Source: an uncultured Dialister sp.
GTDB taxonomy: Bacteria > Bacillota > Negativicutes > Veillonellales > Dialisteraceae
NCBI GenBank assembly: GCA_934216155.1
Contig: CAKQBK010000078.1
Span: forward strand, 1-10,941
Reading direction: 5' to 3'
DNA: 10,941 nucleotides
The stretch's first letter is position 1, and each line of letters begins with the position of its first letter. The position numbers were made by a program, and so were the translations under genes. The notes below the pieces were generated by a model. The model was not told the DNA's origin and did no database searches. It saw only the letters and a list, made by a program, of their open reading frames with translations. Below, one piece after another: positions 1-10,941 of this stretch.

Positions 1-302
1 GAGAGTCCTGAGCAACCTGAGAAACTTTGTCACAAAAGGAATCACCACATATTTCGCTTAACTTAACAGCATTGCCCATTGGGGGAGATGCCGTAGGCAG
101 AGGGGGCACCTTTAGCGGCATAAATAATTATGTTATTCTATGCAAAGTGGGACTAATACCACTCCTCACTTATATTCCATGTGATACAAGCCATAATTGG
201 CAGTTGGGCTAACTGTCAACTGCCAACCGTTAACTGTTAACTGATTTATTTCTCTTCAGGGAAATTAAAAGAGAAACCATTCAAATTGGAAAGGGGAAAC
301 CA
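1..302. repeat. Repeat-rich leader region before rsmG, no gene
   Basis: No credible gene is seen here; the short open frame from 27 has no ribosome binding site and runs through repeats. Bases 1-25 carry two 9-base units (CCTGAGCAA, CCTGAGAAA) and are the reverse complement, with one mismatch, of 3317-3341. Bases 148-170 (GGGACTAATACCACTCCTCA) are the reverse complement of the start of the repeat at about 10801-10823. Bases 209-243 are 7-base repeats of the type TAACTGT/CAACTGC. A stem TTTCTCTT (249-256) / AAGAGAAA (269-276) sits just before the rsmG ribosome binding site. No clear promoter was recognised. Confidence 0.6.
197..226. repeat. Perfect 9-bp inverted repeat
   Basis: TTGGCAGTT (197-205) pairs perfectly with AACTGCCAA (218-226) around a 12-base loop. 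There is no T-run after it, so it does not look like an intrinsic terminator. It forms part of the 7-base repeat tract upstream of rsmG. Confidence 0.6.
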
Positions 303-1013
303 ATGACAGTCGCAGAAATGATGGAGGCCCTGGGCCTTCCGGCCAATGAGGAGGCCGCAAAGAAACTGACAGAATACAACGCCATGGTAATCGAAATGAG
401 CCGCAAGGTGAATCTCACCGGCATCAAAGACGTAGAAGAAAGTCTCATCAAAAATGTCTACGATTCACTGACGGTGTACAAAGACACCTACTTCCCAGAA
501 AAAGGACGTATGATGGACCTGGGCACCGGCGCCGGATTCCCTGGCGTACCCATGGCGATCCTTCGTCCAGACATGCAAGTGGTCCTGGTAGATTCCATTC
601 AGAAAAAGCTCACCTTCATTGAAGGAGCCTGTGCGAAACTGGGTATCAAAAACGTGAAATGTATCCACATGCGGGCCGAAGAAGGAGGCCGCCGCAGAAA
701 AACCAGAGAAACCTTCGACATCGTCACTGCCAGAGCGGTGAAATCCATGCCGGTCATCTCCGAATGGGCCATGCCCTTCGTCAAAGTCGGGGGAGTATTT
801 GCTGCCATGAAAGGCCCCGGCGCAGAAGACGAACTGAAACAGGCCGGCAAAATTCTCCGAGAACTGAAAGGGGAACTCACCGAAAAGAAAGACCTCACCC
901 TGCCTACAGGAGAAAAACGTTGCATCCTCTACATCAAGAAAACCGCTCCCTGCCCGAAGACCTATCCTAGAAAAGTGGGAATTGCGGAAAAGAAACCGAT
1001 TATTGGGGAATGA
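303..1013 (+). CDS. rsmG: 16S rRNA (guanine-527-N7)-methyltransferase RsmG (GidB)
   Basis: RsmG uses S-adenosylmethionine to methylate N7 of G527 in 16S rRNA in the cytoplasm; loss in other bacteria gives low-level streptomycin resistance. The 236-residue length is usual for the family. Visible landmarks are the family segment KNVYDSL (residues 50-56, usually KHILDSL), the SAM-binding glycine motif DLGTGAGFPG (72-81), the acidic strand end VLVDS (94-98), MRAEE (123-127), VTARAV (141-146), MKGPG (169-173) and the C-terminal YPRKVG block (221-226). The ATG at 303 has AAGGGG six bases upstream. In many Firmicutes this gene sits beside parA/parB near the origin; here the gene downstream is yigZ, on the opposite strand, so that cluster is broken or lies to the left. 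The stop TGA abuts a 7-base repeat tract. Confidence 0.97.
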   Translation: MTVAEMMEALGLPANEEAAKKLTEYNAMVIEMSRKVNLTGIKDVEESLIKNVYDSLTVYKDTYFPEKGRMMDLGTGAGFPGVPMAILRPDMQVVLVDSIQKKLTFIEGACAKLGIKNVKCIHMRAEEGGRRRKTRETFDIVTARAVKSMPVISEWAMPFVKVGGVFAAMKGPGAEDELKQAGKILRELKGELTEKKDLTLPTGEKRCILYIKKTAPCPKTYPRKVGIAEKKPIIGE

Positions 1014-1042
1014 GTGACTGGTAGACTGGTGACTTGTGACTG
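1011..1042. repeat. 7-base direct repeat tract at the rsmG stop
   Basis: Units GTGACTG, GTAGACTG (one base longer), GTGACTT and GTGACTG follow the rsmG stop TGA with no gap. The same unit type recurs at 2044 and 4996. Confidence 0.75.
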
Positions 1043-1061
1043 GAAATAGATAGGAATATAG

Positions 1062-1098
1062 AAAAAGCTCTGCTGGGAACCCAAGCAGGGCTTTTTTC
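1062..1098 (+). terminator. Intrinsic terminator after rsmG
   Basis: The stem AAGCTCTGCT (1065-1074) pairs with AGCAGGGCTT (1084-1093) with a single G-T wobble, and the loop contains GGGAACCC. A run of six T follows (1092-1097). It lies about 50 bases after the rsmG stop and should end the rsmG transcript. Confidence 0.88.
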
Positions 1099-1106
1099 TA
1101 TGGGTT

Positions 1107-1290
1107 GTGATTTACCGCTAGTTGTTGGGGTTACGCTCCGAGTTCTAAAGATATAATTCGCACAAACACAAAGCTTCATTGGTTTAAGGTTTAGGGTTTG
1201 CATGATAGCCATTAAACCTTAAGCCCAAAACCAATGCCACTTTCTTCACGGCAGATTGTCTCTAAAGGAACCAGCAGATAAACCCACAAC
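1107..1290. repeat. Imperfect palindromic element with GGTTTAA/GGTTTAG core (copy 1)
   Basis: A long imperfect inverted repeat. The inner arms CATTGGTTTAAGGTTTAGGG (from about 1178) and the reverse complement of TTAAACCTTAAGCCCAAAAC (about 1212-1234) pair around a short loop. The outer arms include GTTGTTGGGGTT on the left and AACCCACAAC on the right. It is related to the clearer copy at 7680-7880 through the CATTGGTTTA...CCAATG core, the flanking GTTGTTGG ends and the GATTGTCTC/GGTTGTCTC block. The core itself is built from 7-base units (GGTTTAA, GGTTTAG). No coding capacity is seen. Confidence 0.7.
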
Positions 1291-1340
1291 TAAAAGAGAT
1301 CCTACGAAATATTTCTATTTCATAGAATCTCTTTTTTAGT
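1289..1340. terminator. Bidirectional hairpin terminator between rsmG and yigZ
   Basis: The left arm (1289-1310; ACTAAAAGAGAT then CTACGAAAT) pairs with the right arm (1317-1340; ATTTCATAG then ATCTCTTTTTTAGT) with few mismatches. A T-run lies on the + strand (1331-1337) and an A-run on the left arm gives a T-run on the - strand. The convergent gene arrangement fits a terminator used from both sides. Confidence 0.75.
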
Positions 1341-1357
1341 AAGTATTTTCCTAGGGC

Positions 1358-1399
1358 CTAGCTACTAGTCATCAGTTACCAATACCTAATCCCCAGTCA
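1358..1399. repeat. 7-base repeat tract overlapping the 3' end of yigZ
   Basis: Six consecutive units: CTAGCTA, CTAGTCA, TCAGTTA, CCAATAC, CTAATCC, CCAGTCA. The yigZ stop (CTA at 1386-1388 on this strand) and its last four residues lie inside the tract. Confidence 0.7.
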
Positions 1400-2027
1400 G
1401 TGCTATCTTCACATACACTTCATCGACTTTCTCGATTTCCGCTTTACCGCCGGTCATGTCGGTGAAAGTTTTGCTATGTTTGGCGGCGTTTTCTGGCAGG
1501 GTGAGGTAGGTAATTTGCACTTTGTCCGTGAAGGTGCGATCTTCTACGCGGATGTCTGTATCTTTACTATAGTTTTCGAAAGCGCCCACAGCGGTGTAGG
1601 GCAGGGTGAGGATGTATTTCTCATAGGGGGTATATCTTACAATGGAGGCGATTTTCACGGTGTCCGCCAGGGAGGAGCTATAGGCTCTTGTGAGACCGCC
1701 GGCGCCCAGTTTGATGCCGCCGAAGTAGCGGGTGACGATGGCTAACACGTTGGTCAGTTCTTTCATTTGCAGCACGTGGAGCATGGGATGGCCGGCAGTG
1801 CCTTGGGGCTCGCCGTCGTCGCTGGATTTTTCCAGAATGCGCTCCGTGCCAAGCCGCCAGGCATAGCAGTTGTGGGTGGCGTCTTTGTATTTTTTACGAA
1901 ATACAGACAGCTGCTCCTGGGCTTCTTCTTCGGAAGTGACAGGAATGATATGGGTGATGAAAATGGATTTCTTGATTTCTATTTCATGAGCAAATGTTTC
2001 AGACGGGGAAGAGTAGGGAATGAGCAT
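1386..2027 (-). CDS. yigZ: YigZ/IMPACT family protein
   Basis: A 213-residue protein of the YigZ (UPF0029/IMPACT) family, a soluble cytoplasmic family with a ribosomal-protein-S5-like fold. The precise bacterial role is unsettled; the eukaryotic relative IMPACT acts in translational control. The N-terminal domain carries the diagnostic THNCYAWR (residues 51-58), SDDGEPQGTAGHP (69-81) and VTRYFGGIKLGAGGLTRAY (98-116). The remainder (about 135-213) matches the position of the smaller C-terminal domain. The ATG is preceded by AAAAGGAG (2036-2043 on the + strand) at 8 bases, which fixes the start. It is co-oriented with lysR, but about 350 bases of repeats separate them. The last residues (LTGD) are encoded within a 7-base repeat tract. 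Confidence 0.93.
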   Translation of the reverse strand: MLIPYSSPSETFAHEIEIKKSIFITHIIPVTSEEEAQEQLSVFRKKYKDATHNCYAWRLGTERILEKSSDDGEPQGTAGHPMLHVLQMKELTNVLAIVTRYFGGIKLGAGGLTRAYSSSLADTVKIASIVRYTPYEKYILTLPYTAVGAFENYSKDTDIRVEDRTFTDKVQITYLTLPENAAKHSKTFTDMTGGKAEIEKVDEVYVKIALTGD

Positions 2028-2043
2028 TTTATAAACTCCTTTT

Positions 2044-2109
2044 GGTGACTGGTGACTAGTAGCTAGGAATTAGAAAATAGTGAGGAGTTAGGAATTAGGA
2101 GTGAGGAGT
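2044..2109. repeat. Nine-unit 7-base repeat tract upstream of yigZ
   Basis: Consecutive units in register: GTGACTG, GTGACTA, GTAGCTA, GGAATTA, GAAAATA, GTGAGGA, GTTAGGA, ATTAGGA, GTGAGGA. Two unit types (GTGACTA and GTTAGGA) are joined without loss of register. The tract runs straight into the hairpin element that follows. Confidence 0.8.
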
Positions 2110-2212
2110 GTTGGAAGGGGCGCACAACTTAAGAAGCACCCCAATACCCTTTTATTGTATTTGTGATTCTAACAATAGACGTTAATTCGCACGTTCGAGG
2201 CCCCTCAGAACC
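2079..2212 (-). repeat. Intergenic hairpin element, copy A1
   Basis: Read on the - strand, this is nearly identical over about 130 bases to 10130-10263. Shared landmarks are TCGAACGTGC, CACAAATACAATAAAA, GGTATTGGGG, the hairpin GGGGTGC...GCGCCCC, CTTCC, and the TCACTCC/TAATTCC repeat end. The stem carries a G-U pair (GGGGTGC with GCGCCCC) where the other copies have a G-C pair, and that pairing survives only when the RNA is read on the - strand. The element sits between lysR and yigZ and points the same way as both. Confidence 0.85.
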
Positions 2213-2376
2213 TATAAAAGGTTATGAGAATATCTGTTCAAGCATAACCCTTTATAACCTTGCCATTAGCCATTATGGTTCTATGTTAAAAATAGGACGC
2301 AGCAGAATAAATAACCTTATATGCCACTCATATTACGCACTAATTCATAATAGGGAAATCAGTATCTACCCACTTA
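2213..2376. other. Gene-free spacer downstream of lysR
   Basis: No gene is supported. A stem GGTTATG (about 2220-2226) / CATAACC (about 2243-2249) resembles the tip of the hairpin at 5312-5432. No T-run terminator for lysR was found, so lysR may be transcribed toward yigZ. Confidence 0.4.
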
Positions 2377-3255
2377 TTATATCATGTCCGGTGGGGATAT
2401 CAGGGTATGAACGAATTGTTCCATTCCTTTGGATAGCGTATGGTTTTTGAGGGAGAAAATGGTTTGGCTGATGGATATATCCGGTGTGGGCAGGGGGTAG
2501 AAATCCACGGTTTCTGAGGCGTCGGTTTCTTTTTGGTCGATGAGGATCGCAATGGCAAGCCCTTCTCTGGCGAGGCGGAGCGAGGAGGTGCGGGTGTCTA
2601 CGGAGTAGAAAATATCCGGCTGTATGTGCCAGGTGGCAGATAGGGTGCGGAAAATATCTTCAGAGCTGCGGCTTACGGCAATGGGAAAATGGGGCAGCAG
2701 GGACAGAATGTTTTCTTGATGAGAGGCAAAGGATTTGGGGACTGCCGCCAGCAGGGATGACGGGGTCTGTTTCCATATATGAAATTGGGATGGATCCGGC
2801 AGGGGTGCATTGGCGATGCCGATTTCAGACCGGCCTTGCCGCACGTCTTCCACCAGTGTGAGATGGTAGGATTCGCGGATGCGGAAACACAGGTCTGGAT
2901 AGGTTTTGTGAAAGGGAGGAAGAATATCTGAAATCAGCCACGACGCATAGGAGGGGGCGATGCTGAGTCGGAGTGTTCCGGATAATCCGGCGGACAGGGC
3001 GGCCAGTTCTGCCTGGGTGTGGTCTTCCATGTCGCAGATTTGTTTCGCTTGTCGATAGACGATCCATCCCGCTTCGGTGAGGGTCAGACTGTGACTGCCC
3101 CGGCGGGGTTCGATGAGGGCGGTGCCGTATTCTTTTTCCAAAATTTGTAATTGCCGGGTCAAAGCCGGCTGGGCGATGTGGTATGTCTTGGCGGCTTTGT
3201 TAAATCCACCACTTTCCACAATGGCAATGAAATGACGAAGAAATTCGGTATTCAT
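2377..3255 (-). CDS. LysR-type transcriptional regulator
   Basis: A 292-residue LysR-type regulator, the normal length. The N-terminal winged helix-turn-helix spans about residues 1-65: MNTEFLRHFIAIVESGGF, then AAKTYHIAQPALTRQLQILE and a GTALIEPRRG wing. A linker helix follows, and a periplasmic-binding-protein-like effector domain covers about 90-292. Such proteins bind DNA as tetramers and respond to a small ligand. The gene is divergent from the AEC permease at 4054, the usual layout for a LysR protein and its target. Two dyads upstream of the permease (3850-3870, 3900-3918) are candidate binding sites. The ligand cannot be read from the sequence. The start is the only one that keeps the full HTH; the region upstream of it offers only a weak ribosome binding site (GAAAGG). 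Confidence 0.92.
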   Translation of the reverse strand: MNTEFLRHFIAIVESGGFNKAAKTYHIAQPALTRQLQILEKEYGTALIEPRRGSHSLTLTEAGWIVYRQAKQICDMEDHTQAELAALSAGLSGTLRLSIAPSYASWLISDILPPFHKTYPDLCFRIRESYHLTLVEDVRQGRSEIGIANAPLPDPSQFHIWKQTPSSLLAAVPKSFASHQENILSLLPHFPIAVSRSSEDIFRTLSATWHIQPDIFYSVDTRTSSLRLAREGLAIAILIDQKETDASETVDFYPLPTPDISISQTIFSLKNHTLSKGMEQFVHTLISPPDMI

Positions 3256-3317
3256 GGGGGGCCTTTCTGTTGCTACGGCTTTGCGTTAGTAGGTATGATT
3301 TCGCTGGAGATGATAAG

Positions 3318-3362
3318 TTTCTCAGGTTGCTCAGGATTCTCAAGTTTCTCAGGTCTCTCGAA
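3318..3362. repeat. 9-base direct repeat tract
   Basis: Five units in register: TTTCTCAGG, TTGCTCAGG, ATTCTCAAG, TTTCTCAGG, TCTCTCGAA. The first three match bases 1-25 in reverse complement. The tract ends at TCGAACGTGC, a junction also found at 10139-10148 and, inverted, at about 2189-2198. Confidence 0.8.
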
Positions 3363-3379
3363 CGTGCTGCTATCCATAA

Positions 3380-3575
3380 ACGTCATTTCGACCGACGGGA
3401 TTTGTGCGGAATGTCGCTGTAGAGTAGTCTGGGACTATGTTAGACAGAAGTGGAGAAATCTTGTGATACTAGCGAAATGATCGAAAGAGACACAAGATTT
3501 CTCCACTTTTGTCCAACATGGTCGCTTGCATCTTTTTTGATATTTAGCACGAATCCCATCGGCTCCCATGACGCT
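3380..3575. repeat. 196-bp imperfect palindrome upstream of lysR
   Basis: Inner arms 3438-3465 and 3491-3518 pair at 25 of 28 positions; the shared core is GTGGAGAAATCTTGTG and its complement. Outer arms 3380-3407 (GTCATTTCGACCGACGGGAT region) and 3547-3575 (ATCCCATCGG, CATGACG) also pair. The central loop is 3466-3490. This is a MITE- or REP-like layout with no reading frame of its own. Confidence 0.8.
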
Positions 3576-3791
3576 AGTCTTTTATACCATTTTTTTAACT
3601 TAGCAGCAGGAGGAAGAAGTGGTATTTCTCATGACCGCTAGAGTGGACGCCTAAGTGAGTAGAGGGAAACCTATTTTATGTCGCTAAAGCGAGCTATCCC
3701 CTGGACTTTTCGCTACGCGTAAGTCCTATCTCCTTCCAAAGGAAGGGGATTCACGTGGTGGATATCACTAGCGGATAGTGGCATGTTTGAG
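3576..3791. repeat. Mosaic of small inverted repeats in the lysR-AEC spacer
   Basis: Contains GGACTT (about 3703) / AAGTCC (3721) around a 12-base loop, CCTTCC (3732-3737) / GGAAGG (3741-3746) around AAA, and CACTA/TAGTG near 3768-3780. The words GCGAGCTATCCCC and CTTCCAAAGGAAG recur inverted at 5064-5100. Open frames here have no ribosome binding site or recognisable product. Confidence 0.5.
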
Positions 3792-3845
3792 GAACCTTTA
3801 GAACCCTCAGAACCTTGAGTAACCTGAGTAACTTAAGCAACCTGT
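3792..3845. repeat. 9-base direct repeat tract
   Basis: Six units in register: GAACCTTTA, GAACCCTCA, GAACCTTGA, GTAACCTGA, GTAACTTAA, GCAACCTGT. This is the complementary-strand type of the 3318-3362 tract. It ends five bases before the first dyad upstream of the AEC permease. Confidence 0.75.
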
Positions 3846-3849
3846 GCAT

Positions 3850-3870
3850 CTTATACAATATTCGTATAAG
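3850..3870. promoter_or_regulatory. Candidate LysR-type operator (dyad 1)
   Basis: A perfect 7-bp inverted repeat with a 7-base spacer: CTTATAC (3850-3856) and GTATAAG (3864-3870). It contains ATAC-N7-GTAT, the same arrangement as the CatM/BenM class of LysR sites and an instance of the T-N11-A rule. It lies in the divergent region between the LysR gene and the AEC permease. Confidence 0.55.
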
Positions 3871-3899
3871 TATCACATTATATTTCTATTTCTATGATA

Positions 3900-3918
3900 A
3901 GTATAAATCGGATATACT
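3900..3918 (+). promoter_or_regulatory. Dyad 2 overlapping a candidate -10 of the AEC permease
   Basis: A perfect 6-bp inverted repeat with a 7-base spacer: AGTATA (3900-3905) and TATACT (3913-3918). TATACT is also a good -10 hexamer; at 17 bases the -35 would be TTCTAT, which is poor, as expected for an activator-dependent promoter. Its centre is about 49 bases from dyad 1, close to the spacing of recognition and activation sites in LysR promoters. Confidence 0.5.
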
Positions 3919-3943
3919 ATAGGAAACAAGGGAAAACTAAGAA

Positions 3944-4000
3944 GTTAGCCGTTAGCGGTAGGCAGAAACGGCTAACTGTCTACTGCTCACTGCTTACTAA
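3944..4000. repeat. Inverted repeat plus 7-base repeat tract in the AEC leader
   Basis: GTTAGCCGTT (3944-3953) pairs perfectly with AACGGCTAAC (3967-3976). It is followed by 7-base units CTAACTG, TCTACTG, CTCACTG, CTTACTA (3972-3999). No T-run follows the stem. Confidence 0.7.
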
Positions 4001-4002
4001 AA

Positions 4003-4018
4003 CGTTTCCCGTGAAACA
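4003..4018. other. parS-like site 1
   Basis: CGTTTCCCGTGAAACA matches the widely conserved chromosomal parS consensus TGTTTCACGTGAAACA at 14 of 16 positions. The core (4004-4017) is identical to the second site at 6973-6986. ParB (Spo0J) binds such sites to organise origin-proximal chromosome segregation, usually near the gidB-parA-parB region. Confidence 0.6.
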
Positions 4019-4053
4019 TGACTCTTATGTATGAAAAAATGAAGGAGAATGGC

Positions 4054-4992
4054 ATGGACGCTATATTACAAGGGTTATCTGGAATTTTTGAGGTAGTACT
4101 CATCGCTGGGCTGGGATTTTTCTTGAACAAGAAGGGCTGGTTCTGGGAGAATGCCGGGAAGGATTTGACGAAGCTCACTATGACCGTGGCGTTGCCGCCG
4201 CTCATGGTGTATTCGCTGTATTCCAATTTCACCCATGACGAGCTGATTGCCACCGCGCCGGATCTGATTTTGCCTTTTATTTCTATTTTTGTGGCTTACT
4301 TAGTGGGGCATCTCTGGGCAGCGGTTCTCCATATTCGCAAAGGACGGCGGGGGATTTTTATTTGTACTTGCTGCATTGCCAATGCAATTTTCATCGGCCT
4401 TCCAGTCAATGTGGCACTCTTCGGTGAATCCAGCGTGCCTTCCTGTATGTTGTATTATATTGCCAACACAGCCATGTTCTGGGGCTTGGGGGCGTATCTC
4501 ATCGTACAGGATGCGGGAGGAGATAAGAAATTCACTCTAAAAGAAATGCTTTTGAAATTGCGGACCCCGCCGCTCATGGGATTCTTGGCTGGGGTGGCCC
4601 TGATTCTTCTCAATGTCCCCATTCCTCATTTTGCTCTGACGGCCATGAAATATGTAGGCGGCATGGCGACACCGATGGCTCTGATTGTCATTGGGATGCA
4701 AATGAGCCAGATTCCATTGTCATCCATTCATTTTGATAAGGAACTGGTAGGGGCTGTGGCTGGTCGTTTCATCTTGGCCCCTTTGTCTTTATTTCTACTG
4801 CTTCCTTTTATTCCTGTATCAGAAATGTCTGCGAAGGTCTTTCTCATGCAAGCCGGTATGCCTGCTATGACAAACATGACCATTCTGGCCTATTCCGTAG
4901 GAGCCGATGCGGAATATTCCACCACCATCAATTGCGTGTCCTTGGCACTGGGGGTATTCTTCATTCCGCTGTATATGTTTTTGCTGAATTAG
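4054..4992 (+). CDS. AEC-family (auxin efflux carrier) transporter
   Basis: A polytopic membrane permease of the AEC family, whose bacterial members carry malate, malonate and similar organic acids. I chose the ATG at 4054 (312 residues) because AAGGAG (4042-4047) sits six bases upstream; the in-frame ATG at 4018 overlaps the parS-like site and has no ribosome binding site. About ten membrane segments are visible, with a short basic loop IRKGRRG (94-100) near the middle. Family landmarks are ALPPLM (46-51), CCIANAIFIGLPV (106-118), the segment with GGMATPMALIVIGMQ (202-216), and AGMPAMTNMTILAYSVGAD (267-285). The divergent LysR gene is its likely regulator, through the dyads at 3850-3918. The substrate is not readable; an organic anion is the default inference. 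Confidence 0.9.
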   Translation: MDAILQGLSGIFEVVLIAGLGFFLNKKGWFWENAGKDLTKLTMTVALPPLMVYSLYSNFTHDELIATAPDLILPFISIFVAYLVGHLWAAVLHIRKGRRGIFICTCCIANAIFIGLPVNVALFGESSVPSCMLYYIANTAMFWGLGAYLIVQDAGGDKKFTLKEMLLKLRTPPLMGFLAGVALILLNVPIPHFALTAMKYVGGMATPMALIVIGMQMSQIPLSSIHFDKELVGAVAGRFILAPLSLFLLLPFIPVSEMSAKVFLMQAGMPAMTNMTILAYSVGADAEYSTTINCVSLALGVFFIPLYMFLLN

Positions 4993-5030
4993 TGGCTGGT
5001 GACTAGGGACTAGTGACTAGGGACTAGGAA
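4989..5030. repeat. Six-unit 7-base tract carrying the AEC stop codon
   Basis: Units in perfect register: TTAGTGG, CTGGTGA, CTAGGGA, CTAGTGA, CTAGGGA, CTAGGAA. The AEC stop TAG (4990-4992) is inside the first unit. Confidence 0.85.
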
Positions 5031-5039
5031 ATATGACGC

Positions 5040-5271
5040 TATCCGTAGAGGCACTAGCGGCTACCCTCTTCCTTTGGAAGGGGGCAGGGGGGATAGCTCG
5101 CACTGGCGAGAGCATTGTGATGAGACACATCACGTTGTCGGCGTTCTGCAAAGGCGGCTAGCGAAACAACTCTTCTTCGTCGGCCTATCCCCGGCTCGCA
5201 AGCGAGCCTGCCCCTTCCTGAGGAAGGGGCTCTTAGGGGGCTGTAGCGGTGATGTGGTTAGAGGAACATAG
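5040..5271. repeat. Palindromic dispersed repeat between AEC and ABC genes
   Basis: The left part (CTCTTCCTTTGGAAG, GGGGATAGCTCGC, about 5064-5100) and right part (CTATCCCC, CGAGCCTGCCCCTTCC, GAGGAAGGGGCTC, about 5182-5231) are inverted copies. Inside lie GATGAGACACATCACGTTG and GGCTAGCGAAACAAC. GCGAGCTATCCCC and CTTCCAAAGGAAG link it to 3685-3750. The open frame 5074-5271 has no ribosome binding site and is dismissed. No T-rich terminator for the AEC gene was found. Confidence 0.6.
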
Positions 5272-5311
5272 ATGTAAATGAAAGGTATTATTTCTCTGTA
5301 TCCTTTATCTA

Positions 5312-5432
5312 ACAGAGAAAAACTACCGCCTGGTAAGGGGGAAAAAGGGGTATTAAAAGGTTATGGGAGTATCGAAAGTTTCATAACCTTTTGTAACCTT
5401 TCATACCCTTTTGACAGGCGGTGTTTTTTCTT
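5312..5432. repeat. 115-base hairpin with GCCTG/CAGGC base and GGTTATG tip
   Basis: The base stem AGAAAAACTACCGCCTG (about 5316-5332) pairs with CAGGCGGTGTTTTTTCT (about 5416-5432). The upper stem AAAGGGGTATT...AAGGTTATG pairs with CATAACCTTTT...CATACCCTTTT. A T-run at 5423-5430 follows the right base arm, so it could also end transcription arriving from the AEC gene. Its tip sequence recurs at about 2213-2250. Confidence 0.65.
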
Positions 5433-5534
5433 TGTTGTATACAGATTTCAGCAGAATAATACCCTTTAGATAAGCGGTATGAAAGTTTTTAGAATAAATC
5501 GTTTTATGGCAGCATATAACCTTTTTACATGTAG

Positions 5535-5540
5535 TATAAT
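5535..5540 (+). promoter_or_regulatory. Candidate -10 of the ABC transporter gene
   Basis: A perfect TATAAT lies 46 bases before the start codon. The -35 region at 17 bases spacing (GCATAT) is poor. The 5573-5579 ribosome binding site GAGAGGA follows, 7 bases before the ATG. Confidence 0.45.
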
Positions 5541-5586
5541 AGATGAAATTTATCCCTAGCGGTTTTGTAAATGAGAGGACGCTTTT

Positions 5587-7278
5587 ATGAAATCTAACAC
5601 GTGGAATCGATCGTTTATACAGTCCCTATTTCACCTGATTACCAAGTACTGGAAGTCGGAGGAGAAGAAAAGTGCTTACCTGTACCTGGTGGGCATTATT
5701 TGGCTCACCATGGCGGCGGTGTATATGACACTCCTTTTGAATGACTGGTTCAATGAGTTTTACAGTGCGCTGCAGAATTATGACAGCGAAGCGGTCTATC
5801 ACGGGCTTTTGAAATTTACCGGTTTGGCCTTTGCCCATATTGCCTTTGCGGTTTATGGGTACTATTTGCAGCAGAAACTGGCTCTTCGGTGGCGGCAGTG
5901 GATGACCCGGGAATACTTGTCTCGCTGGACGTCCCATGACATGTACTACCGGATGGAAATGTTTTCCAAAGGCGAAGCAGATAACCCGGACCAGCGTATT
6001 TCGGAAGATATCAATTTATTCACGTCTCGGACTTTATCTTTCATGTCGGGCCTTTTGAAAGCCATCACCACCATTTTCTGCTTCATTTTTGTCCTGTGGG
6101 GCCTATCGGAACCGCTGTCCTTTATGGTAGGGGGAAGCGAATATCACATCTATGGATACTTGGTGTGGACTGCCCTGGCCTATTCGGTGGTGGGCACCTG
6201 GATCACCCATGTGGTGGGGCACAAACTGGTGGCACTGAATTTCGTGCAGCAGAAATTGGAAGCCGATTTCCGTTATGCCATGGTCAGGCTTCGGGAAACG
6301 GCAGAAAGCGTGGCCTTTTATGAAGGGGCCCGGCGGGAAAATGGGATTCTGGGCCATCGCTTCCAAAAGCTGGTGACCAATACCATCTATATTATCCGAA
6401 AACAAAAACAACTGTCATGGCTCACCAATTCTTACGGTCAGATTGCCATCATCTTTCCTTTCGTGGTGGCGGCCCCGCGGTATTTGTCCAAAAGTATTTC
6501 TCTGGGCGGCCTCATGCAGGTGGCCAACTGCTTTGGTAAAGTGCAGGAATCCATGTCCTACTTCGTGGACGTCTATTCCTCTTTGGCAGAATGGCAATCC
6601 TGCGCCCAGCGACTGCTTTCCTTTGATAGTCACATCGAAACCCTGTTGAAGGAAACGGAAAAGGAAGAGCAGGGACTTCAGCGGGAAGAAAAGGAAGATA
6701 CCTTGCAACTGACCGATGTAGAAATAGGACTTCCCACTGGGCGGATGCTGCTCACGCATATGAATTGCACCATCCACCGGGGCGAAAAAGTGATCATCAA
6801 AGGTCCCTCTGGCAAAGGGAAATCGACGCTACTGAGAACCCTGGCAGGCTTCTGGCCCTATGCAAAAGGGAAAATGGTGCTTCCGAAAAAGGAAGAAACC
6901 ATGTTCATCCCCCAGCGGCCTTACATGCCTATGGGAACGCTCATGGAAGCGGCTGCCTATCCAGATAGTGATGTTTCCCGTGAAACATTGGAAAAACTGC
7001 TGAAAGAATGCGGCCTGTCTCACCTGGTGGATAGCTTGGATATAGAAGGTGATTGGAGTCACATCCTTTCCTTGGGAGAACAACAGAAACTGGCCTTCGT
7101 CCGTATTTTCCTTCGGAAACCCCAATGGGTTTTCTTGGACGAAGCCACCTCCGCCATGGATGAAGAAACGGAAAATAACCTCTACGGCAGACTCGTGTCC
7201 ATCCCGGGCATTACGGTCATCAGCGTAGGACACCGGTCGACGTTGGATAAGTGGCACACAAGAGCTATGCTCTTGTGA
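5587..7278 (+). CDS. SbmA/BacA/YddA-like ABC transporter, fused membrane and ATPase domains
   Basis: A 563-residue half-transporter of the ABC_membrane_2 (SbmA/BacA, YddA, Rv1819c) type, expected to work as a homodimer in the cytoplasmic membrane. Relatives move peptides, vitamin B12 and other hydrophilic or amphipathic compounds; the substrate here is unknown. The membrane domain (about 1-350) has about six segments (around 30-50, 72-94, 152-173, 188-210, 282-300) and the family words [14 protein letters not shown] (101-114) and [13 protein letters not shown] (133-145). The ATPase domain has Walker [10 protein letters not shown] (406-414), Q-loop IPQRP (Q443), signature LSLGEQQ (494-500), Walker B WVFLDE (514-519) and H-loop H549. 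It stops only 14 residues after that histidine, short for the family by recollection. Start fixed by GAGAGGA. A parS-like site lies within the coding region. A role with the biotin genes is only suggested by position. Confidence 0.9.
6972..6987. other. parS-like site 2, inside the ABC gene
   Basis: TGTTTCCCGTGAAACA matches the parS consensus TGTTTCACGTGAAACA at 15 of 16 positions. It lies in frame and encodes VSRET (residues 463-467 of the ABC protein). It shares a 14-base core exactly with 4004-4017, including the same deviation from consensus (C for A). Confidence 0.65.
7257..7277. repeat. Perfect 9-bp hairpin across the ABC stop codon
   Basis: CACAAGAGC (7257-7265) pairs with GCTCTTGTG (7269-7277) around the loop TAT. 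The right arm covers the first two bases of the TGA stop. There is no T-run behind it. Confidence 0.7.
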
Positions 7279-7280
7279 AG

Positions 7281-7487
7281 TGAGGAGTTAGGAGTGAGGA
7301 GTCAGGAGTGAAGGCGGCGAGCGCATCGAATTGCTCTTATACGGATAACTTTATGTGGTGCAGAATCCGTTTCTATATGCTCGCCGAGTTCTGTTTTACG
7401 TGAACCAACATATAAAAGAGAGGTATTGGGGCGCTTCTTAAGTTGTGCGCCCCTTCCTTCACTCCTCACTCCTAATTCCTCACTCCT
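7281..7487 (+). repeat. Intergenic hairpin element, copy A2
   Basis: Starts with 7-base units TGAGGAG, TTAGGAG, TGAGGAG, TCAGGAG (7281-7308) and ends with CACTCCT, CACTCCT, AATTCCT, CACTCCT (7460-7487), so the tips are inverted. Between them lie a stem GGCGAGCGCAT...ATGCTCGCC and the hairpin GGGGCGC (7428-7434) / GCGCCCC (7447-7453). Closely related to A3 over its whole length. Points the same way as the genes on both sides. Confidence 0.85.
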
Positions 7488-7529
7488 CATTTATATCAAG
7501 CCGGAGAGAAGAAAAAGACACAGCATATA

Positions 7530-7561
7530 TTGTAAATACAAAATATTGTCAATCTTGACAA
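7530..7561. promoter_or_regulatory. Candidate BirA-like operator 1 with overlapping -35
   Basis: TTGTAAATA (7530-7538), 14 bases, TCTTGACAA (7553-7561) loosely fits the biotin-operator pattern TTGTAAACC-N14-16-GGTTTACAA. A tighter dyad TTGTCAA-TC-TTGACAA (7546-7561) lies inside. TTGACA (7555-7560) with TACACT (7579-7584) at 18 bases could be a promoter, but its start point would fall directly before the terminator at 7594, which weakens the case. Confidence 0.3.
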
Positions 7562-7593
7562 ATGCTAGTCAACCCTAGTACACTGACACTAAA

Positions 7594-7623
7594 GGCCGAA
7601 GCAGGAGGGCTTCGGCTATTTTT
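7594..7623 (+). terminator. Intrinsic terminator between the ABC gene and bioW
   Basis: GCCGAAGC (7595-7602) pairs perfectly with GCTTCGGC (7609-7616) around AGGAGG, followed by TATTTTT. It would end transcripts coming from the ABC gene, implying that bioW has its own promoter downstream. Confidence 0.9.
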
Positions 7624-7632
7624 ACGGTTTGA

Positions 7633-7665
7633 TTGTTAATTTATGCCGGTTGCGAGTGTTTACAA
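7633..7665. promoter_or_regulatory. Candidate BirA operator 2 upstream of bioW
   Basis: TTGTTAATT (7633-7641), 15 bases, TGTTTACAA (7657-7665). The half-sites match the biotin-operator pattern TTGTwAACC / GGTTwACAA at their conserved outer positions and have the expected spacing. The site lies after the terminator and before bioW, where a biotin repressor would act. No convincing -35/-10 pair was found around it, so confidence is limited. Confidence 0.45.
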
Positions 7666-7679
7666 ATAGAGAAAGTGTT

Positions 7680-7880
7680 GTTAGTTGTTGGTTGGTGGTT
7701 TATGTGCCGAGCTCTACGTAGACAATTTGCCATCCACAAAATTGCATTGGTTTAGGGTTTAAGGTTTTTGTTCTTGCATGTAAACCATAAACCTTAAACC
7801 AATGAGATTTTGGAAAAGGCAGGTTGTCTCAAAAGTGCTCGGCACATAAACCAACAACTATCAACTAACAACCAACAACC
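7680..7880. repeat. 200-bp near-perfect palindrome in the bioW leader (copy 2)
   Basis: Nested arms all pair: ends GTTGTTGGTTGGTGG / CCAACAAC; TTTATGTGCCGAGC (about 7699-7712) / GCTCGGCACATAAA (about 7837-7850); GACAATTTGCC / GGCAGGTTGTC; CATTGGTTTAGGGTTTAAGG (from 7745) / CCTTAAACCAATG (to 7804). The loop is about 7768-7781. The tips are 7-base units (GTTGTTA, GTTGTTG, GTTGGTG and, inverted, CTAACAA, CCAACAA). It ends 8 bases before the bioW ribosome binding site and so would form a large hairpin in the mRNA leader or a cruciform in DNA. Related to copy 1 at 1107-1290. Confidence 0.85.
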
Positions 7881-7901
7881 ATACAGAAAAGGGGCTACAG
7901 T

Positions 7902-8654
7902 ATGTTATACAGTGTCAAAATGCGATCCAGTCTGGGCGGAGTCCATGGACAGGGGGGACGTCATATTTCTGGGGCGGAGCGAATTGTGACGGAAGAGGAT
8001 ATGGAACGTAGTGTGCTGGCCATGCTTCGTCGGGCCAGGACCCATGAACGTGGGGCTGCTGATTTCATTCAGCTTAAAGTGGAAGAGGTAAAGCCAGAGA
8101 ATATCCAGTATTGTCCGCTCCTTCCCATGTACCAGATGGTGTCTCATTCCAAAGAAGAGGGACGGGACATGGCGAAGAAAGAACTGCTTCGCATCGGCGT
8201 CAGTGAAGTGGCGGTACGCAATGGGTTTGCGGAACTGGAATCTTTGACTGACAGCATGCGAGGCGCCATCGTGATGGATGCGCTGACTGGCAAGCGACTG
8301 GATGATAGAAAAGAGCGGGGTGTTCGTTGCAGCAACATGGACTGTGAAGATGTGGCTGCCTACGAATCGAAAATGAAAGCCAAAGGATTGGGCGGTGACC
8401 ATCCTAGAGAAGCGTTGGTACTGGCCTCGAAAGTAGCCTACGGTCCTGGCACGGTGGCAGAACTGTGCTGGTCCGACGACCCGGATTATGTGACCGGCTA
8501 TGTGGGGTCCAAAACTTACGGCTACGGCCGCATCACAGTTATGAAAGACAAAGGTGATCCCGTAGGCGGTCGGGTCTTCTTCGTAGAGCACGGCACCGAC
8601 GTGGAGACCTATGATGATTATATGCAGAATCAAACCATATTAGTTAGAAGTTAG
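7902..8654 (+). CDS. bioW: 6-carboxyhexanoate--CoA ligase (pimeloyl-CoA synthetase) BioW
   Basis: BioW activates pimelate with ATP and CoA to pimeloyl-CoA, releasing AMP and pyrophosphate, the entry step of biotin synthesis in Bacillus-type pathways. The 250-residue protein aligns from end to end with the BioW family: YSVKMRSS at the start, HISGAER (21-27), RGAIVMDALTGKRLD (120-134), RGVRCSNMD (139-147), REALVLASKV (169-178) and AELCWSDDPDYVTGYV (186-201). The ATG at 7902 has AAAGGGG (7888-7894) seven bases upstream. bioF follows after a 213-base repeat element, suggesting one transcript. The last three residues (VRS) and the stop are encoded inside a 7-base repeat tract; by recollection the Bacillus protein runs several residues further, so the native C-terminus appears to have been replaced. 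Confidence 0.95.
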   Translation: MLYSVKMRSSLGGVHGQGGRHISGAERIVTEEDMERSVLAMLRRARTHERGAADFIQLKVEEVKPENIQYCPLLPMYQMVSHSKEEGRDMAKKELLRIGVSEVAVRNGFAELESLTDSMRGAIVMDALTGKRLDDRKERGVRCSNMDCEDVAAYESKMKAKGLGGDHPREALVLASKVAYGPGTVAELCWSDDPDYVTGYVGSKTYGYGRITVMKDKGDPVGGRVFFVEHGTDVETYDDYMQNQTILVRS

Positions 8655-8856
8655 AAGTGAGAAGTGAGAAGTGAAGGCCGGCGAGCGCATCGAATTACTC
8701 TTATGTGGATTTCTTCAAGTAGCACAGAGTCCGTTTCTATATGCTCGCCGATTATTGCTAATTGTGTACTTTATATAAAAGGGGTATTGGGGCGCTTCCA
8801 AATTTTGTGCGCCCCTTCCACCACTCCTCACTCCTAACTCCTCACTTCTCACTATG
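8644..8856 (+). repeat. Intergenic hairpin element, copy A3, filling the bioW-bioF gap
   Basis: Begins with TTAGAAG, TTAGAAG, TGAGAAG, TGAGAAG (8644-8671), the second unit holding the bioW stop, and ends with CACTCCT, CACTCCT, AACTCCT, CACTTCT, CACTATG (8822-8856), one base of which is already part of the bioF ribosome binding site. Inside are the stem CGGCGAGCGCAT...ATGCTCGCCG and the hairpin GGGGCGC (8789-8795) / GCGCCCC (8809-8815). The whole intergenic space is this element. Confidence 0.88.
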
Positions 8857-8867
8857 AGGTGATACCT

Positions 8868-10031
8868 ATGAAAATCAATGATATACCCAATCAATTAAAT
8901 GAAATACGAAAAGAGTCCCGTTTCCGGCAGGTGTCGGATCTTCGGATGGTGACCGCTTCTAAGGGGATTCGCCGGGATGGGAAGGAATATATTGTATTCA
9001 ATTCCAACGATTACTTGGGCATGACCCACGAACCGGAGGTGATGGAAGCGGCAAGGCAGGCTATTTCCTATGGCACTGGTTCCGGCGGGGCCAGGCTCAC
9101 TTCGGGAGCGGTATTTGAATTGTCCGATTTGGAAAAAGAATTGGCTCAGTTCAAACACGCCGAAGAGGCGGTGATTTTTAATACCGGCTACATGACGAAC
9201 CTGGGTGTTCTTTATGCGCTAGCCGATAAGAACGATGTGATTTTTTCCGATGCGTTGAACCATGCCAGCATTGTGGATGGTTGCCGGATTTCCCGGGCCC
9301 ACGTGGTGGTCTATGGTCATTCCGATATGGATGATTTGGAAAAGAAATTGGTCGAAACGCCCTGTGACGGACAGCGTTTTATTGTCACCGATGGGGTCTT
9401 TTCCATGGATGGCGATGTGGCACCCCTTCCGGATTTGCTTCGACTGAAAAAGAAATACGATGCTTGCCTCATCGTAGACGATGCTCACGGTGTGGGAGTC
9501 ATCGGAGAAACCGGAAGAGGCAGCGGGGAATATTTCCATACCTCTGGCATCGATGTGCAGGTAGGCACCCTGTCCAAGTCTCTGGGAGCCGAAGGGGGCT
9601 ATGCAGCCACAACGAAAGAAATCGCTGCGTTTTTAAGAAATCGGTCCCGTCCCTTCATTTTCTCCACGTCCATTTCTGCCGTGACCGGTGCCACTGCCTT
9701 GGCAGCTCTTCGTTTATTGGAAGCCAAACCGGAAATCTATATGGGGAAACTTCGTAGAAATACAGCGTACATGAAACAGAAACTCACCGAAGCAGGCATT
9801 CCCTTCCTGCCGGGCGATACGTCTATCATTCCGGTGGTCATGGGAGACGAAGCAAAAACCCTGGCCTATGCCAAGGCCTGCCTGGAAGAGGGTATTCTCC
9901 TCTCCGCCATTCGTCCGCCCACAGTGCCCAAAGGCACCAGCCGCATCCGCCTCACCGTGACCGCCGCCCATACACAGGAAGAACTGGATCGGGCGGCGGA
10001 CGTGATGGGAAAACACTGGAAGAGCAATTAG
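8868..10031 (+). CDS. bioF: 8-amino-7-oxononanoate synthase BioF
   Basis: A PLP-dependent alpha-oxoamine synthase that condenses pimeloyl-CoA with L-alanine to 8-amino-7-oxononanoate, CO2 and CoA. I chose the ATG at 8868 (387 residues): GAGGTGA (8856-8862) is a strong ribosome binding site five bases upstream, and the alternative GTG at 8859 lies inside that site. Landmarks are NSNDYLGM (45-52), GTGSGGARLTSG (69-80), NHASIVDG (131-138) with the cofactor-stacking H132, DDAHGVG (204-210) with D204 and H207, and the PLP lysine K237 in GTLSKSLG (233-240). The family also holds 2-amino-3-ketobutyrate CoA ligase (Kbl) and 5-aminolevulinate synthase, which these motifs alone do not exclude; the bioW neighbour makes BioF the best reading. 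The stop lies in a 7-base repeat tract. Confidence 0.92.
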   Translation: MKINDIPNQLNEIRKESRFRQVSDLRMVTASKGIRRDGKEYIVFNSNDYLGMTHEPEVMEAARQAISYGTGSGGARLTSGAVFELSDLEKELAQFKHAEEAVIFNTGYMTNLGVLYALADKNDVIFSDALNHASIVDGCRISRAHVVVYGHSDMDDLEKKLVETPCDGQRFIVTDGVFSMDGDVAPLPDLLRLKKKYDACLIVDDAHGVGVIGETGRGSGEYFHTSGIDVQVGTLSKSLGAEGGYAATTKEIAAFLRNRSRPFIFSTSISAVTGATALAALRLLEAKPEIYMGKLRRNTAYMKQKLTEAGIPFLPGDTSIIPVVMGDEAKTLAYAKACLEEGILLSAIRPPTVPKGTSRIRLTVTAAHTQEELDRAADVMGKHWKSN

Positions 10032-10263
10032 GAATGAGAAATGAGGAATTAGGAATGGTAGTGGCGGCGCACAAAATTTAGAAGCACCGCAGAATGTAAT
10101 ATGAAAAGGTTCTGAAGGTTCTAAGGGTTCAAGGGGCCTCGAACGTGCGAATTGACGTCTGTTGTTAGAGTCACAAATACAATAAAAAGGGGTATTGGGG
10201 CGCTTTTTAAGTTGTGCGCCCCTTCCACCACTTCTCACTCCTAATTCCTAACTTCTCACTATT
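10028..10263 (+). repeat. Intergenic hairpin element, copy A4
   Basis: Begins with TTAGGAA, TGAGAAA, TGAGGAA, TTAGGAA (10028-10055), the first unit carrying the bioF stop. The left arm GGCGCACAAAATTTAGAAGC pairs with the right arm region 10197-10222, and the hairpin GGGGCGC (10197-10203) / GCGCCCC (10216-10222) is intact. A 9-base tract AAGGTTCTG, AAGGTTCTA, AGGGTTCAA, GGGGCCTCG (10106-10141) is embedded. It ends in CACTTCT, CACTCCT, AATTCCT, AACTTCT, CACTATT, and 7-base spacing continues to about 10284. About 130 bases match A1 in reverse complement. Confidence 0.88.
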
Positions 10264-10302
10264 TTCTAATCCCCAGTCACTCAACATACGAAAGGAAAAG
10301 CC

Positions 10303-10785
10303 ATGAACAGTATCGCTAAGGAACGTTCACTCATCATCGATTGTACCGAGACCGCATTGCTGGCGGTGCTCATTGCGGTGTCAGGGACGTTTCGTATCCC
10401 TGGCATCGTGCCGGGAACGGAGTTTCAACTGTCTGCGCCCATTGCGGTCGCCATTTGTGGTGTCTTTGGGTTCAAGAAATATATTACGGCCGGCATCATT
10501 GCTTCTTTACTTGGTTTAGGCATGGGGACCGCTACCATTTTGAACGTAGCGATTCAGATGGCGTTCCGTTTGGGGGTCGGTGTATTCTGGCTTCTGTCTG
10601 GTTCGAACAAGCTCTTTTACATCTTCTCCGGTCCCATTGGTACCGCCTTGGCGCGGGTGGTGATGTATTTTCTTTTGGGAAAAGGCCTCACCCTGATGCT
10701 CATCGCCGCCGCTCCCGGCATGGCGTTTACAGCAGCTACGGCGTGGATATTTGGTCGATTGTTCCGCAAGTGCAAGATAAGTTAG
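10303..10785 (+). CDS. Small integral membrane protein, ECF S-component-like
   Basis: A 160-residue, very hydrophobic protein with about six likely membrane segments (around 14-32, 43-57, 60-80, 84-100, 105-125, 129-152), a positively charged C-terminal tail (RLFRKCK) and no signal peptide. Size and layout fit the substrate-binding S component of energy-coupling factor transporters. The N-terminal stretch ETALLAVLIAVSG followed by IPGIVPGTEFQLSAPIAVAI resembles that class, but I do not see a clear BioY signature and cannot name the family. It follows bioF on the same strand with AAAGGA (10291-10296) six bases before the ATG, so it may belong to the biotin operon and could import pimelate, biotin or another precursor. 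No ATPase or EcfT partner is in the window. The stop is inside a 7-base repeat unit. Confidence 0.7.
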   Translation: MNSIAKERSLIIDCTETALLAVLIAVSGTFRIPGIVPGTEFQLSAPIAVAICGVFGFKKYITAGIIASLLGLGMGTATILNVAIQMAFRLGVGVFWLLSGSNKLFYIFSGPIGTALARVVMYFLLGKGLTLMLIAAAPGMAFTAATAWIFGRLFRKCKIS

Positions 10786-10809
10786 GAGTGTGGAATTAGG
10801 AGTGAGGAG
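10782..10809. repeat. 7-base tract carrying the stop of the last gene
   Basis: Units in register: TTAGGAG, TGTGGAA, TTAGGAG, TGAGGAG. The stop TAG (10783-10785) is inside the first unit, after which GGTATTAGTCCCA follows, as in reverse complement at about 148-165. Confidence 0.8.
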
Positions 10810-10941
10810 TGGTATTAGTCCCATAACGGATTGTCGTACCGTTAGCGAAGTATACCGCTAGAGATGCCCATCTTCGCTTCGCTCGAAATGGCGTCTCACT
10901 ATATCCCTGCGTCGCTTTGCTCCTAGCGATATAGTTCGCTT
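10810..10941. repeat. Partial repeat element at the right edge
   Basis: No gene is seen. ACTATATC (10898-10905) and GATATAGT (10928-10935) form a perfect 8-bp inverted repeat, and GCGAAG/CTTCGC words are repeated between 10846 and 10885. ACCGCTAGAG recurs at about 3636. The element probably continues past the window. Confidence 0.5.

Follow-up and report, generated by a model that had tools for sequence, protein, structure and literature searches.

Gene-end heptamer repeats are known from Xanthomonas and Nostoc. Their intergenic units, GGGAATC and GGGGA(C/T)T, sit on the coding strand when they lie 0-50 bp past a stop codon and on the non-coding strand when they precede a start codon (PMC4692102). 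They sometimes run over the stop codon, are sometimes inverted, and are under-represented between divergent genes. A link to inverted, stem-loop arrangements is already mentioned for them, and polymerase slippage is cited as a hypothesis (PMC4692102). The TAACTGA direct repeats of marine Beggiatoaceae, cyanobacteria, and Bacteroidetes are dominated by one unit, with most sets facing a start codon, and stop codons limit how far that unit can enter a gene (PMC4679880). Here, we analyzed a 10,941-nucleotide stretch of DNA from an uncultured Dialister sp. (contig CAKQBK010000078.1), referred to in full length as the window, in which a first-pass annotation had noticed tracts of 7-base direct repeats (heptads) at the ends of seven of eight genes. 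We consider it fairly probable that these tracts are lineage-specific, mostly non-coding gene-end repeats, in which a module made of a hairpin and a slipping heptad tract is tolerated behind stop codons. Our verdict is that they are a lineage-specific variant of the known gene-end heptamers and of repeats resembling repetitive extragenic palindromes (REP) and miniature inverted-repeat transposable elements (MITE).

Stop and start regions in the window were given their best score over 14 positions, and p-values were obtained by shuffling the bases of the intergenic DNA in the window, with the 90 nt upstream of a gene serving as its start region. As first noticed, seven of the eight stops lie at 7-periodic sequence, with best scores of 9-14 of 14. 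These belong to rsmG (open reading frame (ORF) end at 1013), yigZ (1386, minus strand), AEC (4992), ABC (7278), bioW (8654), bioF (10031), and the last gene (10785). The p-values were 0.000 for AEC, ABC, bioW, and bioF, 0.001 for rsmG and the last gene, and 0.032 for yigZ; lysR was rightly singled out as the sole gene without a 7-periodic stop region (p = 0.54). When periods 5-13 were scanned at one threshold, the window gave 11 tracts with period 7, a single one with period 9, and none with any other period (5, 6, 8, or 10-13). The same threshold yielded no period-7 tract in ten Veillonella loci (207 kb) and one in ten loci of Bacillus and kin (205 kb). The strict threshold used for the period scan and for the tandem-gap counts leaves out the tracts of rsmG, yigZ, and the last gene. 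Start regions were also found to be 7-periodic (p ≤ 0.02) in six of the eight genes (rsmG, yigZ, AEC, bioW, bioF, and the last gene, not lysR or ABC), and the ten tracts in tandem gaps that pass the strict threshold were evenly divided, five closer to the stop and five closer to the start. Tracts adjoin starts as well because many of them are inverted arm pairs of intergenic fold-back elements, of which four (A, B, C, and D) of 206-235 bp each are listed in Table 1.

An enrichment at stops over starts, which the first-pass annotation had put forward as support for its idea, was observed in the related genome UBA7295. The sample from this genome was 351 kb in 9 contigs, with genes called by a simple ORF script, and it was not random: five of the nine contigs were picked for matches to the GTKR pattern described below, and the remaining four because they appeared in the ABC search. 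It holds 122 tracts of period 7, none of periods 8, 10, 11, or 13, six of period 9, and 15 of period 6, with 100 of the 122 being intergenic. A tract was found within 10 nt of 18/263 stops versus 4/263 starts, and random placement in the same gaps gave 10.0 ± 2.7 stops and 8.0 ± 2.3 starts. Within 150 nt, the stop excess fades (55 versus 44; random 52 versus 46). Tracts in tandem gaps were closer to the stop in 34/55 cases in UBA7295 (p = 0.1), 11/14 in genome G333 (p = 0.057), and 8/10 in an 800 kb sample of D. succinatiphilus (p = 0.11), a preference that is not significant in any one genome alone.

The strand rule is stronger than this tandem-gap position preference. Within 60 nt of stops, the GT strand of the tract was the coding strand in 38 cases and the template strand in 4 in UBA7295, and 17 versus 5 (1 tie) in G333. 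Within 60 nt of starts, the GT strand was instead the template strand in 11 cases, coding in 6, and tied in 2 in UBA7295, and template in 4 versus coding in 0 (1 tie) in G333. The few tracts of D. succinatiphilus followed no strand rule (3 versus 3 at stops). Tract density per kb was lowest in divergent gaps, at 0.99 in UBA7295 (tandem 1.71, convergent 1.86) and 0.31 in G333 (tandem 0.61, convergent 1.46).

This stop-side and strand rule is already published for the Xanthomonas and Nostoc heptamers (PMC4692102). The Dialister tracts share with them the period-7 excess, the intergenic site, the strand rule at stops and starts, and the rarity between divergent genes. They differ in their units, which are GTKRNNN or AGTGAGG-like and varied within one genome, and in being often tied to terminator-like hairpins; many units, judged by eye, lack GGG, the kind of run from which a G-quadruplex could form. 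The first-pass annotation had likened the tracts to cyanobacterial heptamers, but joined to hairpin elements; a stem-loop link is already mentioned in PMC4692102. With the TAACTGA repeats (PMC4679880), the likeness is that UBA7295 carries GTTATCA, a rotation of the reverse complement of TAACTGA, mostly between genes. The difference is that Dialister has many units and a stop-side excess, and TAACTGA is not the unit of the window. Literature searches returned no paper on such repeats in Dialister, and this is the sole basis for calling them unreported there.

The first-pass annotation had gone further, proposing that the repeat supplies the stop codon and that a tract is kept at gene ends since its all-frame stops let it insert or expand there and close the frame. 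Its arithmetic is correct: TAG or TGA is present in the units it listed, and successive copies of a 7-base unit step through every frame. The proposal that the repeat supplies the stop is borne out for bioW, where a tract-encoded TAG replaces another end, and not for rsmG, AEC, yigZ, bioF, ABC, or the last gene. In relatives G001, G002, and G003, bioW and bioF overlap, with the bioF ATG within the last bioW codons; the window has the 212-bp element B instead. The bioW protein of the window ends in ILVRS, with TAG inside a heptad. A 99% identical BioW, P0001 (a cluster of 30 sequences), presumably from the same species as the window, is identical over the first 245 residues and then continues as VLVKMSNE, so the change looks recent and confined to the tract. 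Tail length also varies among other bioW relatives (250-255 residues in most of 30 homologues). On genome contigs, the closest bioW relatives are from three records of Dialister (78-80% identity), and by its proteins the window belongs within or close to that genus.

At rsmG, the end position is identical in 5/6 relatives, three of which (G003, G004, and G006) have no tract in the 70 nt past the stop, and at AEC it is identical in 3/3 relatives, none with a tract there. Shared ends in tract-free relatives are what the annotation itself had named as speaking against its idea, and stop supply is thus not general. Relative to relatives, C-termini are shifted by -3 to +1 residues in yigZ, -2 to +1 in bioF, and -2 to +2 in the control lysR. 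The ABC protein is 7-10 residues shorter than the UBA1703, D. succinatiphilus, and UBA7295 copies, and the last gene falls 3-4 residues short of its counterparts in two relatives. We dropped truncation by a tract as an explanation for both, because nearer homologues have the same or nearly the same ends: at the protein level, the ABC end of the window is shared by a copy at 99% identity and by the five homologues that come next (82-93%), and the tail of the last gene is only 1 residue shorter than that of an 88% homologue.

Evidence on the all-frame stops themselves is divided between genomes. In UBA7295, TAG was used at 8/18 tract-touching stops versus 39/245 others (Fisher p = 0.006), 14/16 tracts within 6 nt of a stop offer stops in all three frames, and all-frame tracts make up 21/39 of those at stops versus 19/76 elsewhere. 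Also in line with a role for the stops, 8-base TAG tracts lie at the yigZ stop in two relatives, 2/5 listed AGTG-type tracts of D. succinatiphilus lie at stops, and its 9-base family, which does not cycle through frames, lies within 10 nt of a stop in only 1/10 cases (5/10 are inside ORFs of the simple caller). In G333, however, all-frame tracts are not enriched at stops (3/16 versus 7/21), and since only 1/7 tracts within 6 nt of a stop has them, all-frame stops are not required. The Xanthomonas and Nostoc heptamers obey the same rule with no stop triplet on their G-rich strand, as read off the unit (PMC4692102). A comparison of 34 reciprocal pairs between UBA7295 and D. succinatiphilus included 5 with a tract within 10 nt, and ends were at most 3 residues apart in 4/5, which is too few for a test. 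Taken together, it appears unlikely that stop codons are the reason tracts are kept at gene ends. The most economical reading is that an all-frame stop helps where a module enters a coding end, as at bioW, and is not the cause of the pattern.

Tracts were found to be uneven across the genus and diverse in unit. The exact pattern AGGAGTNAGGAGTNAGGAGT had zero matches in 6 genomes of the genus, and the general pattern GTKRNNN in four copies was therefore used. It matched at 459 overlapping places in UBA7295 (reversed control 37), 4 in UBA1703, 2 in D. succinatiphilus, and 0 in three further genomes. Across the class, one or more matches occurred in 136/380 genomes, but the reversed control was also high in several genomes, so the pattern lacks specificity at this level. 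Consensus units in UBA7295 vary by tract (GTTATCA 21, GTTAGCC 19, GTGATTC 9, GTGCGGG 8, and others, of 122). The GTKR form fits 89/122 tracts versus 4327/20000 random heptamers, a figure biased upwards because five of the nine contigs were chosen by that pattern. One 200-base array of UBA7295 (L219, 283-483) runs through GTTGTTC, GTGGTTC, GTGGTCC, and ATTAGCT in succession within a single period-7 tract. Tracts are scarce in D. succinatiphilus, whose 800 kb sample gave 19 with period 7, 8 with period 8, and 11 with period 9, the last including a GAACCYTYT family. An 8-base family (TAGTGAGC-like) is found at two stops of UBA1703, those of yigZ and rsmG, and at the yigZ stop of D. succinatiphilus, whose rsmG gene has a 7-base tract (CGCTCTC) 11 nt past its stop. 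Orthologous gene ends can therefore bear repeats that differ in unit and length.

Hairpins accompany many of these tracts. In UBA7295, the GT strand often leads, in many cases via AAGG, into a hairpin that is GC-rich and followed by a T-rich tail; the 49 aligned copies of this hairpin module were chosen for having AAGG ahead of the hairpin. When tracts were not selected in this way, a terminator-like hairpin was found within 100 nt past the GT 3' end in 52/103 intergenic tracts, compared with 23/103 on the opposite side and 2114/9000 random positions, and 39 of the 52 hairpins begin within 14 nt of the tract. Folding z-scores, computed from base shuffles, had a median of -1.40 after the tract versus -0.18 before it (n = 98, p = 1.3e-6). 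A terminator-like site was present within 150 nt of the stop for 29/43 UBA7295 stops with a tract within 60 nt versus 99/220 others, and for 17/22 versus 104/282 in G333. One stem subfamily was anchored on AAGG(T/C)G, a TGA(T/C/G) loop, and ATG(G/T)G, with pairing counted from the anchored positions because MAFFT misplaced some stems. Across its 18 sites, with 13 distinct arm pairs, 96% of positions were paired versus 66% with shuffled arms (a level attained in 0/2000 shuffles). In the window, a moderate hairpin follows the right arms of elements A, B, and C (z of -2.0, -3.3, and -2.8). A and B have a common core (85% over 73 nt), and a GGGGCGC...GCGCCCC hairpin beside an arm is common to A, B, C, and a copy in inverted orientation at 2081-2160. 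In the three genomes, gene-end hairpins thus repeatedly accompany heptads, but in differing order. In G333 (L178-L197), terminator-like hairpins recur with changing stems (GGCGCTGTCGCATGAAGACAGCGCC, GGGCTTGTCGCATGACGACAAGCCC), and AAATTTAAA is common to several fold-back cores.

REP palindromes and REPINs have GTAG or CGTC tags and small hairpins, with units often close in opposite orientation, and lie mostly downstream of genes, between unidirectional or convergent genes (PMC3733652). The Dialister elements resemble them as inverted small hairpins in gaps behind genes, and differ in their heptad arms and unconserved stem sequences. A Y1 (RAYT-like) transposase that disperses hairpins in inverted pairs, with heptads as a side product, would account for the paired hairpins of element C, the preference for gaps behind genes, and the bioW/bioF junction that is free of the element in relatives. 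A Y1_Tnp domain (PF01797), the one transposase domain covered, was detected in 3/10 genomes, UBA7295, G333, and G337 (RAYT and IS200-type Y1 not told apart), and no match was found in G001, G002, or G004-G006. On the other side, G165 and G195 have many pattern matches and no Y1_Tnp match, stem sequences vary widely, and no GTAG or CGTC tag was noticed by eye beside the hairpins, although AAGG-selected alignments cannot decide tag presence. For the same reason, we dropped AAGG(T/C)G before the hairpin as a tag that would exclude REP, the copies having been selected for AAGG. We regard dispersal by such a transposase as unlikely.

Elements A-D do have features of MITE type, namely terminal inverted repeats in all four and the element-free bioW/bioF junction in 3/3 relatives. 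The BrickBuilt MITE of Porphyromonas gingivalis carries an internal minisatellite with a 23-base unit and forms one family, 49-591 nt from genes (PMC4596501). The Dialister elements are likewise intergenic and combine tandem repeats with inverted-repeat ends, but with heptads in place of a 23-base unit and a single family. In cyanobacteria, short tandemly repeated repetitive (STRR) sequences are short repeats in a stem-loop. The P6b repeats of the Nostoc tRNA-Leu intron, also short repeats in a stem-loop (PMC4476775), are intronic, whereas the Dialister tracts lie at gene ends.

We favor a module in which a degenerate 7-base tract, with its GT strand directed out of the gene, would form one arm in the gap and be joined by at least one hairpin, often shaped like an intrinsic terminator; two modules back to back would give a fold-back element. 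The proposal builds on the position, strand rule, and period of the tracts, the hairpin association in UBA7295, the paired stems of one subfamily, and the element-free bioW/bioF junction. Modules may arise at gene gaps or insert into them, the latter implying mobility. Unit sequence, copy number, and sometimes unit length would then turn over fast, probably by replication slippage beside the hairpins, and modules would persist where they are least harmful, directly behind stops and away from divergent promoters. Their orientation may be set by the hairpin or by transcription. The stop would normally be the old one, with the TAG or TGA of the repeat taking over only when a module lands in the last codons, as appears to have happened at bioW. 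The predicted terminator-like hairpins probably end transcription, and the heptads themselves would need no function.

Several observations weigh against this model. In UBA7295, a partner tract (shared 9-mer, within 800 nt) was found in inverted orientation for 23/122 tracts and in direct orientation for 25, and paired arms are an exception there, since inverted partners are no commoner than direct ones. Inspection by eye of one junction, that of element B, revealed no target-site duplication. In a BLAST comparison of the eleven window gaps with the UBA7295, D. succinatiphilus, and G333 samples, the cores of elements A, B, and D had no relative in other genomes. Outside matches were obtained only for the element C core and the first 300 bases, both in D. 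succinatiphilus, and those of element C were short 9-mer matches. A canonical stem and T-run follow a tract in the window only at rsmG and yigZ, the left arms of A, B, and C having none (z of +1.0, +2.5, and -0.6), and an automatic terminator scan placed terminators after 2/10 tracts and before 6/10. The order often differs in G333, with heptads inside the gap and terminator-like hairpins outside. Terminator-like sites there stood before 20 and after 19 of 34 tracts, and folding was stronger before the tract (z of -3.42) than after it (-1.03), which means that a heptad tract does not always lead into a terminator. Finally, extra pair types and doubly changed positions in the anchored stem subfamily were not above shuffles.

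Random slippage alone would not favor one length and one strand. A bolder reading is an active, enzyme-driven process that lays tandem units of preferred length beside gene-end hairpins, GT strand outward, and so rewrites 3' ends, C-termini, and terminators. The preferred length would be 7 in the window species and UBA7295, but 7-, 8-, and 9-base tracts lie side by side in D. succinatiphilus, which makes such a process less probable, and we think it quite improbable overall. That heptads might be binding sites for an RNA- or DNA-binding regulator of translation or mRNA decay, as suggested for the Beggiatoaceae TAACTGA, seems very improbable: the commonest UBA7295 unit (GTTATCA, 21/122) and the start-side orientation (11 versus 6) agree with PMC4679880, but units differ in sequence between neighboring tracts and between species, and in length too, and tracts favor stops over starts.

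Table 1. Coordinates of heptad tracts, hairpins, and fold-back elements in the window, and of the 8-base repeats in relatives (TRF, Tandem Repeats Finder)
Feature	Position	Strand	Evidence
Heptad tract (GTTAACA type), upstream of rsmG	211..245	-	TRF
Heptad tract (GTGACTG), begins at rsmG stop codon	1014..1043	+	TRF; stop region p = 0.001
Terminator-like hairpin and T-run after rsmG tract	1057..1102	+	fold z = -6.0
Terminator-like hairpin and T-run after yigZ tract	1292..1335	-	fold z = -7.3
Degenerate heptad tract across yigZ stop codon	1352..1395	-	stop region p = 0.032; sequence
Two heptad tracts directly upstream of yigZ start, GT strand opposite to gene	2043..2113	+	TRF; start region p = 0.000
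Heptad tract (GTGACTAGGGACTA) including AEC stop	4990..5037	+	TRF; stop-region score
Fold-back element A: heptad arms 7279-7312 and 7457-7489; hairpin 7428-7453 inside right arm	7279..7489	.	inverted-repeat search; folding
Fold-back element D, upstream of bioW: long palindrome (arms 80% complementary), heptad ends (TTGTTAG type); arms 7676-7705 and 7845-7881	7676..7881	.	inverted-repeat search
Fold-back element B, bioW-bioF gap: heptad arms 8642-8675 and 8820-8853; hairpin 8789-8815	8642..8853	.	TRF; inverted-repeat search; folding; relatives
bioW stop TAG encoded by heptad unit (TTAGAAG)	8652..8654	+	sequence; relatives
Fold-back element C, after bioF: heptad arms 10026-10058 and 10229-10260; inverted hairpins 10064-10090 and 10197-10222	10026..10260	.	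inverted-repeat search; folding
Heptad tract including last-gene stop	10780..10811	+	TRF; stop-region score
8-base repeats (TAGTGAGC-like) at yigZ and rsmG stops of relatives	L226 2125-2191; L225 1450-1500; L218 1438-1495		

Other repeats were also observed in the window. The divergent lysR-AEC gap contains inverted arms of 9-base repeats (GTTNCTCAG) at 3314-3360 and 3792-3837, one of which is matched in reverse by bases 1-27 of the window, and a hairpin at 3433-3523 with 33-nt arms that are 91% complementary and without heptads. A perfect 23-nt inverted repeat (AGTGAGGAGTGGTATTAGTCCCA) lies near both window ends (148-170 and 10801-10823), which suggests two copies of one further element. The Pfam names for the window's proteins are GidB/RsmG, UPF0029 (YigZ), LysR, Mem_trans (AEC), SbmA-like ABC transporter, BioW, and class I/II aminotransferase (BioF). 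The last gene (10303-10785) encodes a conserved 160-residue protein without a Pfam family, hydrophobic by eye, whose named relatives are from Dialister (L002, L003) and Acidaminococcus (P0276). A plasmid search with the window gave zero matches.

Distant phyla are already on record as having gene-end heptamers, with no cause established. Within Dialister, there are tract-rich and tract-poor species, 7-, 8-, and 9-base versions (with unit length differing at one and the same stop for yigZ and rsmG), a link to hairpins, and, at bioW, a repeat copy that alters the C-terminus and is missing from a 99% identical protein. These contrasts make the origin of the repeats, the choice of seven bases, and the outward strand testable by strain comparison.

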